A stretch of 64,000 bases of DNA from Gamarada debralockiae (Eukaryota; Ascomycota; Leotiomycetes; Helotiales; Hyphodiscaceae), in contig NXFV01001780.1 in assembly GCA_002803225.1 (NCBI GenBank), positions 1 to 64,000 of the forward strand, read 5' to 3'. The number at the start of each line of letters is the position of its first letter. Position 1 is the first letter of the stretch. This document shows positions 25,466 to 31,197 of the stretch, piece after piece. Made by a program: the position numbers and the translations under genes. A model generated the notes under the pieces. That model saw nothing but the letters and a program-made list of their open reading frames with translations. It did not search any database and was not told the origin of the DNA.

Positions 25466-27612
25466 TCATAACTCTCCATCTTGCAAATCTTCTCTCCTCT
25501 CATCGGCCAGCAACTCGGGGATATCAGGCTCGAAGCCTTGCTCAAAATTCTGGAGATCTTCATCCTCTAACGTACCAATAAAGGCACGTTTGATGAATTG
25601 CAGCCAGACCTTGTTCTTCTCGTGCTGCTTGTGATGCTTCTTCTTCTTGTGCTTCTTCCCCCTCTCAGCATCAAAGTCATCTTCATAATCAGAAGTGTCC
25701 TGTACCACTTCATCCTCGTCAAATTCGTCAAGGGACTCGTCAATTCGATCGCCCTTCTCTGGCTTGTACTGCCCAATCCTGTGCGCGAGCTTGATGTAGC
25801 TTCGTACTGTCATATCCTTCAAATTGTATATTGGGTCCGTGAAGGTGTCGTATTCGACCTGGTATTGGAATGACTTTGGTTTCGGGGCTTTGTCTTTTGG
25901 ATGCTTGCCGTGGTGCTTGCCCTTACGCCACTTGTCCGTATCAAGATCGTCATCTTGTGGCTTGACAAAGTCATTGTTGATGTGAGTGAGGTTTGCAAAG
26001 TATTGGGTGTAGCCGAGCATAGTCAAAGTCTGAGGGGAATAGGCTGGACCCGGTGGTGAGTTCTTGGTTGGTGGATCTGGGATGATGAGATCGGGGTCCG
26101 AGGGCTTCTTCTTTTTCTTCATTTCTGAAAGATCATCGTCGACATACGATTCGGCATCTTCCTCAAGCCAGTCCATCTGCTGATCGGCTTGGGGTGCTGC
26201 GAACCCCTCTTCCCAGACCGCTGTTCCTTCAAGCCCGGTGATATTGTACTCAATGACTCGGATTGTCGGGAAATAGTTCGGTACCACACTTGGACCGACA
26301 AGGGAAACATGGAATCGCTCTCCCCATGGGCCTCCAATCTTCTTCAAGGCCTTGTCTCTCTTGCTATTCTTGCCTTTCTTTTTCTTGGACCCATCAATAT
26401 CGTCCGAAAATGCAGCGACAGGATTTGGCAGATCGGACCAGTCTTCACGCAGCTCTTCCAGGTAATCATTGGCAGACTGGACGGTGAGCTCTTCATCCAT
26501 CATGACTCGCGCAAGGTGATTTGCAGATGGTTGTCCTTCCATAGCGAGGAGATCCACTTCCTTGGTATCTTGCAACATGAAGTGATCGATATTCATGTGC
26601 CCGTAGAGACCCCCAATCACCACATCTCGATATTGCTTAAGCCAGAGGGTATACTTCTGCCAGCAAGTCTCGTCCCAGAGTTGTTTGCTCTCTGTTCGGG
26701 CAGGAGGAACATGACCTGTGAGAATTGCCTTCATCCCACGCTGCCGCATGAACTGTAGTTGAATTCGGAGCCATTCCATATGTTCATAGCCAGGCTCAGA
26801 CCGTAACGCACAGCCGTCGACAGCAGCATTGTGGCTGAAGAAGTAGAGCGTGTTGAGACTAAAGACAGCCAATTTGTTTGGAATGACTTCGACGTAGTAC
26901 CAGCCTCCTCTTTCAAAGCCATGTCTTTGCTCTTCTGGTATGAACTTCCTCCAAACATCGGTATATGTCCTTAGCCATTTATTTGGCCCCGAAAGTAAAA
27001 TGTTGTGCGGTAGAATATCATTGTTGCCAAAAGTCGAGACGATCGGAATTGTGAGAGCGTTGTTCGGATCATCATCCTTGCCAAATACTTCCACAAATTT
27101 CTCGGCGACCTTTCTGTTTGTACCAAGAACTTCTTCTTCGTTTCGAGGGATCTTTTCGTCGCTATCGTGCCGAGCGGAGTCGCCTGTCCATACTACAAAA
27201 TCGATGGTATCCTTAATGTTATCCTCTATCCATTTGAAGGTCGCATTGAGAAGAGTAAAAGGTGTGTCGCAATCTGAGGTCTCTGCACCGTACGTGCCGG
27301 CTGTGCCCTGGCCTCTATGACAGGCATCGTCTTCTGCGGTCGAGGAGTGGATTTTGTAGAAGGGATCTGGATGTAGATCTACATAGAGATCTGATCAGTA
27401 TCGTACAAGAAAGATAAGATTAGGGATACCCCACCTGTGATGTGCAGGAATCGGCCATGCAGTTCTCGCGAGGCAGCGGACTGAGGGTGTGTGACAGTCA
27501 GGTCCTCCAATGGCGCTTGCAGGCGCGATTGTGTACCGGCGATAGGCTTTGCATGTACATCATCGAGCAGACATGCCGCTGCTGCTGCTAATAATAATGC
27601 AAATGGATGCAT
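25466..27612 (-). CDS. PPN1: Vacuolar endopolyphosphatase
   Basis: Two exons, 27612-27435 and 27378-25466, with a 56-bp intron whose splicing creates FLHITDLHPDPFY. The protein has 696 residues. An N-terminal hydrophobic stretch (HPFALLLAAAAACLL) acts as signal or membrane anchor. Calcineurin-type metallophosphatase motifs follow in order: DLHPD, WTGDSARHD, FGNNDILPHN, GHVPPA and YGHMNIDHF, giving the full set of metal ligands. The second half carries highly charged Lys/Asp/Glu-rich insertions (KKKKGKNSKR and a His/Lys-rich block KKHKKKKHHKQHEKNK) typical of fungal Ppn1. Family role: cuts internal phosphoanhydride bonds of long polyphosphate chains in the vacuole, for phosphate storage and mobilisation. 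In yeast it is activated by proteolysis. The gene looks intact. Confidence 0.95.
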
Positions 27613-28564
27613 TTTTTGAACAATCTGAAAATAGAGAAATTTCAGGAAAAGGATGACATCCTCAGAAGAGGGTTCAAACCTTCAAAAGATCCCGTGCGAT
27701 CCCCTGTTCCAGGCAGACGGTAGCTGGCTGCTGAGGTGACACCTGTCGGCTGAATGATCTTCGAAAATTTGACGGGAACGCGGGAGGGCTAAGAGCTTAT
27801 TTCCCGCAGCATCAAAATAGGAGAATAACGAAAATGTCCCCTGACTTTGGATATGAAAAAGGAGAAAGAGAAGAAAGAAATACGCTGTGGGAGATTTCTC
27901 ATTCCTAAATATTAACTTGGTCTGAATCCAGCTCCCAAGGTGGATGTCTCAGCCATCAGCATCACATCCAAGCTACACCACCTCTTTGCTCTCCATAGTA
28001 ATGTTTCATCCAATCAATGGTCCACGTGTAGGCAGTCGAGTCAGATGTTTGGGGGGCAAAAAGGACATGCTCCTATTTTCTTATTCTTACTCCTTCTACT
28101 CCCCTCAACATTTTACGAGCTCTCACAAATAGGGGTGCACGCGACCATTCTCTTTCGTAGTGATGACAAGTTGGTGAGGATCGTGAGCCTCGATCTGGTG
28201 GTGGATGTCGTGTAGCCTGATGTGGCCATATGAAGCCTGTGAAAATGCATGCGGGTACTGGGATTTGGCCGATGGTGGTGGTGACATCTGCTGCCTCAAC
28301 CAATTTTGGGATATCTCCTTTGCGATGTAGCAAGCACTTTCCATAGCCGGTGATGTCAGAGTGAGATAAGAGGAAAAATAATTATCAACGTGCAGCTGAA
28401 GATCGTAAAATATGTTTCTGGAAGGCCTCCGTGCGCAATCAGCGGGAAGACGGGACCCTACACTAACCCAAAGCAGCGAATCAAGGGCCGTCCCTTTCGG
28501 ACTTGGACAAATATCTTTATATATTCAAATAAGACAAAATTTTCCAATCAAACACCACATCTCA
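27613..28564. other. Spacer: PPN1 promoter and tRNA upstream region
   Basis: About 950 bp between the PPN1 start codon and the tRNA gene. Open frames up to about 91 codons are present but without motifs. No coding feature is supported. Confidence 0.5.
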
Positions 28565-28711
28565 GGCGCGATGGCAGAGCGGTCTAATGCGATGTAAGTA
28601 TCACTGGGAGCATTTTCTGAAAGCAGAAACTAACCCTTATCAGAGACTAGAACTACTCAAAGTTGTCATCTATTCTCTTCGGAGGCGCAGGTTCAAATCC
28701 TGCTCGCGTCG
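28565..28711 (+). tRNA. tRNA-Ser(AGA) with two interruptions
   Basis: Acceptor strands GGCGCGA (28565-28571) and TCGCGTC (28704-28710) pair with one G-U. Discriminator is G73, as in serine tRNAs. A box TGGCAGAGCGG (28572 on), 3-bp D stem GCA/TGC, T arm GCAGG-TTCAAAT-CCTGC (28687-28703) and a long variable arm with CTC-TTCG-GAG are all present. The anticodon stem forms only if 28594-28643 is removed: ATAGA (28592-28593 plus 28644-28646) then pairs with TCTAT (28669-28673). This leaves the loop C-U-AGA-A with U33 and anticodon AGA at 28649-28651. A conventional 15-nt intron lies at 28653-28667, right after position 37. The mature length would be 82 nt, standard for fungal tRNA-Ser. Function: decoding UCU/UCC/UCA after A34-to-inosine editing, provided both interruptions are removed. 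Confidence 0.82.
28594..28643 (+). other. Spliceosomal-type intron-like insert in the tRNA anticodon stem
   Basis: A 50-nt segment between tRNA positions 28 and 29. It starts GTAAGTAT, ends TTATCAG, and has ACTAAC about 10 nt before its end. These are the donor, acceptor and branch-point patterns of the protein-coding introns in this window. Eukaryotic tRNA introns otherwise sit between positions 37 and 38. Confidence 0.65.
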
Positions 28712-28721
28712 CAAAGAATAA

Positions 28722-28727
28722 TTTTTT
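28722..28727 (+). terminator. RNA polymerase III terminator (T6)
   Basis: A run of six T residues begins 11 nt after the tRNA discriminator base, with a second T6 run at 28735-28740. This is the expected position and composition for Pol III termination and supports the tRNA gene as a transcription unit. Confidence 0.7.
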
Positions 28728-31197
28728 GGCTAGATTTTTTCTCTCATTTTGTGTTCTGGTTTGGTAAGCGAGCGGAAGGGGTTCGGACCGAGTTCCGATG
28801 AACCACCCCCTTTTTTACCCGAATGCGCCACCCTCTTTCAGCCCTGATTTGGCTGAGCTGAGACGGCAACACATTTGCGAATCCGAAAGAATGTTTCAAA
28901 TTGGCCGGCTGAATTTGTGGATTCAATAATATTTTAGTCTCTTGGCTGTTTTAAGTAAAAGTTGCGCTCTTCAGCTGATTTGAGCTGAGTAATCTTTACA
29001 GTTATTTTTGTGGCGGTACAGTGTCGAGAAGGCCAAGCCTCTTCTAAAAAGCTCTGAAAAGGCTTATGGGAAATATCTCCATTGGTTAACAGGTAAGAGT
29101 AAAAGTTCCAAATTTGATTTGTTCAAATGACGTTAAACATGTTGTGACCCTGGGGAGCTGGTGGGTTTGACGAGGCTGACAGTTCTGGGACATCCGGGGC
29201 AAGGCTCTGTAAAGAAAGCTACGCATTCCACAAACGCTATCCCATCTTTTTAAATGATAGTCCGCCGCCATCTGAGTGCCCAAGTCGTGTTCAGTATTTC
29301 AAGTTTTGGGGTTTGCGAAAGTCATTCTTCCACCGCAAGAACGCAAGAGTACGTCATTCTCAAAGCCGATTATTACTTTGCAGTCTGCAATGAGCCGATG
29401 ATCACTCAAACCCCAAATCAGGTGAGCTCCTTCCTCTTATACCGGGCGAGTCGAAGAATATCACAATCACATTTCACGTCACGGTTAATTGCGGGGCGAA
29501 GGGGGCATTGTATTGTGTCAAGAGTGGAAAAGTGGGTGGGCAAAGAAGCCAGGTGAGCTTCCCCCTCTCTCACCGGGCGTGTTGAAGTATCATAACCATC
29601 ACGGTTAACTGCGGGGCGAAGGGTAAATGGCATCAAAAGTGGAAGAGTGGATGACCGAGGAAGGGTAAAGGACCCTTCTGACAGGCATGAGACACGATGC
29701 AGCTTGGCTGCTTAGGATCTTTCAGTACTCGTGCGTCGAATACGTCTTCCAGAAGGTCAGAAGCAAACTAGAAGCCAGTTCACATGCAAAAGCAACTTGC
29801 ACCTCCAAAGAAAGGACAGATGACATGCCTACAAGACGTCATAACGGAGATATGAGGCTCTACACATGAGCGACTTCGGAACAAAAGAGGGGCTGTGCAA
29901 CAGCCTCGCGCGCTGGAGCAAGTCCGAAACATAGGTGTTCGGTGGCTCCCGAATTTGAGAGCTGTTTTATAAGCAGTGACTCAAGCGATAGGATGGATAC
30001 GGGTGCGGATGTTTCAATCATTGTTGATTCTAAGGAACGTAGTACGGTATCGTGGTTTTGTTGCTGATAGAGGATTCCGAGGAAGAATTCCGGGATGGCT
30101 GAGCCGGGTCCGATCCGTGCCAAACCGCAGCTGGGCGTACTCGGCGATACTGAACGGGCATCCATTCATCCGTAAACAACAATTCAAACCCGATGGATTA
30201 CAAACACTTCTTATCGACAGATTGAAGCAACGTGTGTGTAACTATTTGCTGTCAGTTCAATCAGACACTTATCGATGTCGAAGGGACAGCTCACGTTTCG
30301 CAAACCGATGTTATCCGCCACCCGAGATCCAAAGGAACGACGACAACAAGTAGATATCACCACGGTCAGATCGACTCGTTCATGCGAGGTAAGCTCAAAT
30401 CGGAGATTTACTGCAAAGCACGGCATAGCTTCTAGTGCTTCAAGAACCAGTGGAGTTTGAGAAAGCGAGGCACGAGGCTTTCGAACTGATTGGGTATTAC
30501 GCAGCCTTGTCTCCCACACTCTAACCTCTTGTTTTCTGATTTGTCCGATCCTGGAGCTTGGCGTAGGAGCTATGATTTGGGGCTGAAAGACCCCTCTGTA
30601 ACCGAGCTATTGAGTTTTCTTGAAATCAGCATGCTCCTGCCGGCTTGGGCGAAATGGCATCATGGCAGATGCGAACTGCATGAGGCGCTGTACAGATGAG
30701 CTGTTGCCTGCATTCTTGCGTTGGTGATTCTGAGCTCCGTGCTCGGGCTTTGGGCTTGCATCGAATTTCAATCATGTGGTCTGTCTGGTAGTCAATCCTT
30801 CGAGAGAGTATCCTTCGTAGCATAGCCCTTCATCCTCAAACAGTTCTTATCGGCACAAAAAAGAGGGGAAGAGGAGTCATTGAAGCATATAAGGAACCTC
30901 CCAACTCCTCCTTATTTGAATTTGCTGCTCTCCTCATCAAACTCTTCGATATTTCCAGCCTTGTTCCAATAACCACTATTTTCTCTGCAATTATATGCAC
31001 CTTGCTAGATTAAGCATTCTCTTTCAACTTAATCCCTACCAGATTTTTTACCCCACACCCTCAGACAGTCGGCAATCTGGCCTCCCAAATTTTCGACGGT
31101 ATCATTCGTTTGCATTGGCCCACCTAGTAAGCCACCGCTGCCTTACCCCCACGATGCATATCCCAATTAACTCACTTGCCTTAGCTCTTTCTGGCCC
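28728..31197. other. Long spacer without recognisable gene
   Basis: About 2.5 kb between the tRNA and the next gene. It contains the 131-bp tandem duplication at 29421-29668 and, near 30840-31190, a pyrimidine-rich stretch that probably is promoter and leader for the gene at 31198. Short open frames (to about 125 codons near 29976-30353) lack motifs. Confidence 0.5.
29421..29668. repeat. Diverged tandem duplication, period 131 bp
   Basis: Copy 1 starts at 29421 and copy 2 at 29552, both with GGTGAGCT. Shared later words include CACCGGGCG/ACCGGGCGAG, TCACGGTTAA, TGCGGGGCGAAGGG and AGTGGAA. Copies differ by scattered substitutions and small indels. No coding content recognised. Confidence 0.75.

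Follow-up and report, generated by a model that had tools for sequence, protein, structure and literature searches.

Spliceosomal-type introns in a tRNA-Ser(AGA) gene and in further tRNA genes of the fungus Gamarada debralockiae

Here we describe a tRNA-Ser(AGA) gene of Gamarada debralockiae in which a 50-nt insert with the signals of a spliceosomal intron stands in addition to a conventional tRNA intron. The gene lies in a 64,000-nucleotide stretch of contig NXFV01001780.1 (hereafter the window) and is, very probably, a working gene that has acquired a U2-type spliceosomal intron and belongs to a group of tRNA genes colonised alike with one to five such introns each. The sequence logic of this genome-wide pattern is strong, and its best reading is that the spliceosome removes the spliceosomal-type introns and the tRNA endonuclease the conventional intron at position 37/38.

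The window tRNA-Ser(AGA) gene and a second Ser(AGA) gene

The original prediction described a tRNA-Ser(AGA) gene with all of its parts (Table 1), and both the parts and their coordinates agree with what is seen in the sequence and with ARAGORN. It had also proposed that the insert at 28/29 carries intron signals and that its removal repairs the tRNA. This is borne out: taking out the 50 nt regains a 5-bp anticodon stem (ATAGA/TCTAT), U33 and the anticodon AGA, ARAGORN then names the gene Ser(aga) with a 15-nt intron, and removal of both introns leaves the 82-nt tRNA-Ser(AGA) that had been foreseen. It is only after the removal that cloverleaf, anticodon, long variable arm, A and B boxes and terminator are all found together; the intact gene gave nothing with ARAGORN run without introns, nor with Rfam (27000-30500, E<=1). 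The segment listed as the A box is presumed to be one from its agreement with the consensus.

Table 1. Parts of the window tRNA-Ser(AGA) gene (window coordinates) and further loci (coordinates with contig)
Feature	Coordinates	Strand	Remarks
Whole tRNA-Ser(AGA) gene	28565..28711	+	147 nt; 82 nt once both introns are out
Exon 1 (5' acceptor, D arm, positions 26-28)	28565..28593	+	
Spliceosomal-type intron at 28/29, 50 nt	28594..28643	+	GTAAGT 5' splice site, ACTAAC branch motif, CAG 3' end
CTAAC of the ACTAAC branch motif in the 50-nt intron	28630-28634	+	
Predicted branch A of the 50-nt intron	28633	+	
Exon 2 (rest of 5' anticodon stem, position 32, U33, anticodon AGA, A37)	28644..28652	+	
Conventional tRNA intron at 37/38, 15 nt	28653..28667	+	ARAGORN
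Exon 3 (position 38, 3' anticodon stem, variable arm, T arm, 3' acceptor, G73)	28668..28711	+	
Presumed A box TGGCAGAGCGGT	28572..28583	+	Unbroken in this gene; read from the sequence
B box GGTTCAAATCC	28690..28700	+	
AAATAAG element upstream of the gene	28527..28533	+	
T6 run, likely Pol III terminator	28722..28727	+	
U6 gene L137	G000:C1066:52940-53200	-	Two spliceosomal-type introns
Second U6-like gene L136	G000:C507:60-320	-	Intron-free
Ala(CGC) copy L093	G000:C916:47000-47700		5'-truncated

Three other assignments of the insert were tried. A single long intron at 37/38, the alternative fold that the original prediction had named against itself, yields in ARAGORN only a Leu(caa) whose anticodon stem is defective. 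A group I or group II intron at 28/29 was rejected because 50 nt is too short and Rfam gave no match (27000-30500, E<=1), and an endonuclease intron because the insert sits at 28/29 rather than 37/38 and has no full BHB.

When the 5' part of the Ser tRNA was searched with up to three mismatches against the assembly (54.3 Mb in 1112 contigs), three matches were returned: the window gene, a gene on contig C197 and a site on C554, the last (three mismatches) having no tRNA in its surroundings on inspection. The C197 gene (Ser-AGA-2) gives a matching tRNA body once a 50-nt insert of its own (GTTCGT..ACTAAC..CAACAG) is removed from 26/27, two bases from the site at 28/29 in the window gene. The same body with a different insert argues that the window insert is not due to chance. 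Between the two mature tRNAs four acceptor positions differ, which amount to two compensated base pairs (C5-G68 to A-T, G6-C67 to A-T). The 3' half, again with up to three mismatches, gave 16 matches against six for a reversed control; these are both Ser-AGA genes and 14 others, of which six were read in context and one proved to be a Ser(CGA) gene without a spliceosomal-type intron. The Ser-AGA genes found with either half at up to three mismatches are thus two, both insert-bearing, and the tally of additional Ser(AGA) genes proposed at the outset comes to one. A scan of viral contigs gave one contig on which a Ser tRNA, apparently ordinary and unbroken on inspection, neighbours another tRNA; it is irrelevant here.

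Interrupted tRNA genes across the assembly

Counting insert-bearing tRNA genes of the same sort, a check suggested by the original prediction, gave a resolved set of 11 genes with 23 spliceosomal-type introns, one to five per gene (Ser-AGA x2, Ala-AGC x2, Ala-TGC, Ala-CGC, Gly-CCC, Gln-CTG, Glu-TTC, Arg-TCG and Leu-CAA), in an inventory that is incomplete and biased to intron-bearing genes where the search required a branch motif. Every one of the 11 also has the conventional 37/38 intron, so that the coexistence of the two kinds of intron claimed for the window gene recurs in ten further tRNA genes, and a U6 gene is interrupted in like manner. Among 15 nuclear tRNA genes lacking spliceosomal-type introns, 12 carry a 37/38 intron (L004, L007, L012-L016, L023, L090, L100, L120 and L121, which include Gly, Asp, Glu, His, Lys and Gln) and three have none (Met, L001; Cys, L002; Val, L003). 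The tRNA gene count leaves out L057, L080, L116, L117, L118 and L125.

Patterns that require both a B box and a branch motif matched 19 and 13 times, against 32 and 38 in the reversed control, and with fewer matches than the control the pattern alone is no evidence. Among these matches, besides the Ser pair, were tRNA genes for Gly(CCC), Ala(TGC), Ala(CGC) with two spliceosomal-type introns, Ala(AGC), and Arg(TCG) with an intron inside the acceptor stem, at 6/7. A CTGAY pattern gave 12 matches against 19 in the control, one of them the gene already known on C991 and another on C258. Intron-neutral B-box patterns added Gln(CTG), Leu(CAA), Glu(TTC) and the second Ala(AGC); one B-box scan returned 67 rows at 49 sites (36 rows in its control), and 16 of these sites could be resolved as tRNA genes, nine with and seven without spliceosomal-type introns. 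No cloverleaf solution was obtained for L122-L124, L129-L132, L134 and L135 and only a poor one for L127, while L138 was unlike a tRNA on inspection. The boundaries of Ala-CGC intron 1 are nearly tied between GTCTGC (49 nt) and GTACGT (53 nt), the latter being chosen with 200 nt of upstream sequence and a larger candidate list. A 5'-truncated copy of this Ala(CGC) gene (L093) lies about 3 kb from the full one. L116 and L117 are two tRNA-like 3' ends, forming a pair, that carry long inserts past the anticodon stem; the insert is repetitive in L116, which ARAGORN names Ala(ggc) with a 56-nt intron.

The tRNA calls were set against several controls. At 97 B-box sites the strict solver found a cloverleaf at 17, each scoring above 21, and zero at the remaining 80, although no fewer than three of these are true genes requiring looser settings (L040, L126 and L128). 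Real genes score 23.0-27.2. One of 2,200 dinucleotide shuffles had any solution (13.3) and none matched the real score; 20,000 decoys, in which window DNA was placed upstream of true 3' ends, gave 21 with any solution, the best at 20.9, both controls being permitted up to five introns and TG ends. L040 failed the first solver and was solved after its paralog L128 had revealed the exons, and for L126 the D-loop rule was relaxed after its sequence had been seen, the shuffles and decoys being run with the same relaxed rule. ARAGORN is a separate program, yet one whose input sequences were chosen by the solver; it named the expected isotype in 0/11 unspliced genes, in 9/11 with the spliceosomal-type introns removed (misnaming Gln-CTG and one Ala-AGC while the 37/38 intron was left in) and in 11/11 with the 37/38 intron removed too.

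The most heavily interrupted genes are two Ala(AGC) paralogs, L040 on C160 and L128 on C991, each of about 350 nt with five spliceosomal-type introns, at 10/11, 19/20, 26/27, 43/44 and 50/51 in both when numbered from sequence offsets, plus the 37/38 intron. Their mature tRNAs (72 nt) are identical, whereas the intron interiors agree in 16/37, 15/30, 19/29, 20/34 and 19/31 columns for introns 1 to 5; shuffled interiors have a mean identity of 0.48, which places two introns near random and three somewhat higher. Taken with the paired acceptor changes of the Ser genes, identical mature tRNAs beside diverged introns point to selection on the spliced product. It could be held instead that the set consists of tRNA pseudogenes killed by insertions, with working intron-free copies absent from the assembly or missed, and the assembly is indeed fragmented, the inventory incomplete and a truncated copy present in the form of L093. 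We consider this very improbable, given that exact removal yields full tRNAs in 11 genes, that the only two Ser-AGA genes recovered both have inserts, and that changes in the exons are paired or absent; nor does the 'freshly killed gene' that the original prediction had entertained fit the acceptor-stem changes or the constrained Ala-AGC paralogs. No intron-free copy of seven queried tRNAs was found, in a weak search that brought back pieces from six intron-bearing loci and zero at the Glu or Ala-AGC genes.

Character of the introns

As a class the 23 introns are 47-57 nt long (median 51). All begin with GT and 21 finish with AG, the exceptions being intron 5 of both Ala-AGC paralogs, an apparent GT-TG; the 3' ends read CAG in 13, TAG in six, AAG in two and TTG in two. 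A CTRAY motif is present in 23/23, with the branch A 9-14 nt before the 3' end, although its presence is partly by construction, the patterns and the solver having demanded one. The solver admitted introns of 40-75 nt and branch motifs ending 4-22 nt from the intron end, limits wider than what was observed, so that the narrow ranges of length and branch position are not simply built in.

For comparison, two coding introns of the window, alike in size to the tRNA introns, were bracketed by tblastn, with boundaries set by eye: one of 46 nt (GTTAGT..AG), in which CTGAC lies right against the AG, and one of 49 nt (GTACGT..GCTGAC..ACAG), with a branch spacing like that of the tRNA introns. The proteins of two window genes indicate a helotialean fungus: among named matches, that of BCKDH E2 has 80-81% identity to proteins from Mollisiaceae and Cadophora, and that of ERB1 has 89% identity to proteins from Cadophora and Hyaloscypha, while metagenome proteins are closer.

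Ectopic introns cut by the tRNA endonuclease, as in red algal and nucleomorph tRNAs, would also interrupt tRNA genes away from 37/38, and such introns, at many positions and several to a gene, are known in archaea, nucleomorphs and Cyanidioschyzon (PMC4090602). The four central BHB pairs are complete in one of the 23 introns (Ala-AGC-1 intron 1), without the flanking helices, and a full BHB, outer and inner helices included, in 0/23; the GT starts, the AG ends and the narrowly spaced branch motif are features that the endonuclease does not need. It is therefore highly unlikely that the endonuclease removes these inserts, and removal by the spliceosome is the reading we prefer.

The number of introns, their near-uniform length and their concentration in one gene class could suggest a recently mobile family of introners inserting into tRNA genes, the 'introner-like insertion' raised in the original prediction, and a 17-nt stretch at the 3' end of Ala-AGC-1 intron 1 is 94% like that of Ser-AGA-2. 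An all-against-all comparison of the 23 introns, however, gave just three short similarities, two of them between Ala paralogs. In a search for second genomic copies of 14 of the 23, all ten matches were the queries themselves; this search excludes close copies only, since it failed to return even the diverged paralogous introns on C991. We thus judge an introner origin most unlikely.

Probable transcription, proposed order of processing and relation to known systems

The usual substrates of spliceosomes are Pol II transcripts, and the A box is split by introns in Ala-AGC, Ala-CGC and Gly-CCC and displaced in Arg-TCG, where Pol III initiation should suffer unless upstream elements suffice. Both points would favour the same spliceosomal introns in Pol II or dual transcripts. 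Against this, an [AT]ATAAG motif lies within 70 nt upstream of 9 of 22 tRNA genes, 6/11 with and 3/11 without spliceosomal-type introns, where base shuffles give an expectation of 1.3; the motif was picked after looking, and L128 was assessed over just 38 nt. Runs of five or more T follow 10 of the 11 interrupted genes within up to 45 nt (Ser-AGA-2 has only T4 within 45 nt) and occur inside 0/11 gene bodies. The U6 gene L137, moreover, has introns of the same kind, 55 and 52 nt long, one just before the ACAGAGA region and the other within GGAT|GACACGC. Its spliced form is a normal-looking U6 with the ACAGAGA box intact, and unspliced it matches positions 1-73 of 105 of the Rfam U6 model (44 bits). 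Pol II or dual transcription is thus unlikely, and Pol III is preferred. A second U6-like gene (L136) has AATCAATACAGAG in place of AACGATACAGAG. No intron was seen in the 14 5S matches listed, each 120 nt across the full model (47 of 2575 candidates were scored), which suggests that invasion reaches tRNA and U6 genes and not those 5S genes.

A model for the Ser gene can be proposed from these signals. Pol III would transcribe it from the TATA-like upstream element and the internal boxes to the downstream T run. The spliceosome would then excise each 47-57-nt GT-AG intron of such a transcript through the observed 5' splice site and CTRAY motif. Cloverleaf and anticodon stem would form only after this step, whereupon the endonuclease would cut the 37/38 intron and the ligase seal the ends. 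With its ends matured, the tRNA-Ser(AGA) would decode UCU, UCC and UCA through I34, as tRNAs with an AGA anticodon do.

We regard it as reasonably probable that cytoplasmic translation in this fungus is obligately spliceosome-dependent by way of tRNA: all resolved nuclear Ala genes (AGC x2, TGC, CGC) and both Ser(AGA) genes would need splicing, with up to five events per 72-nt RNA, before the endonuclease acts. If so, a single RNA molecule would pass through one splicing machine and then through a second, unrelated one, and the choice of readable codons could depend on how active the spliceosome is. Should the genes be expressed, intron gain would extend beyond mRNA-like transcripts, the spliceosome would cope with 6-10-nt exons within a structured RNA of the Pol III type, and genes of this sort would escape the usual tRNA annotation. 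Invaded tRNA and U6 genes beside apparently uninvaded 5S also make the entry of introns into non-coding genes testable.

The original prediction knew of no described fungal case, and among the titles and abstract openings listed by searches of the open-access literature, preprints excluded, none reports spliceosomal introns in tRNA genes. The 23 introns stand apart from the conventional 37/38 ones in where they sit, in their signals and in the enzyme presumed to remove them. Spliceosomal introns occur in the U6 snRNA genes of certain fungi, S. pombe among them, and these resemble the present case as mRNA-type introns in a Pol III transcript, a U6 gene of this kind being present in the genome itself; here, in contrast, the host RNA is a tRNA, with up to five introns in 72 nt and an endonuclease intron in the same transcript. 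Ectopic spliceosomal introns are described in the rDNA of lichens and ascomycetes in PMC8527467, where yeast is reported to have spliced introns of this sort out of Pol I rRNA. The likeness is that the spliceosome acts on a structural RNA from a polymerase other than Pol II, whereas the polymerase and the RNA are others here and the tRNA exons go down to 6-10 nt. According to PMC4090602, ectopic tRNA introns of C. merolae are tied to the endonuclease and BHB motifs, and the tRNA inserts of nucleomorphs measure 3-24 nt, their route of removal being given as unknown. The introns of these two systems share with ours their non-canonical positions and their occurrence several to a gene; unlike them, those described here are GT..AG introns of 47-57 nt with a branch motif and no full BHB.
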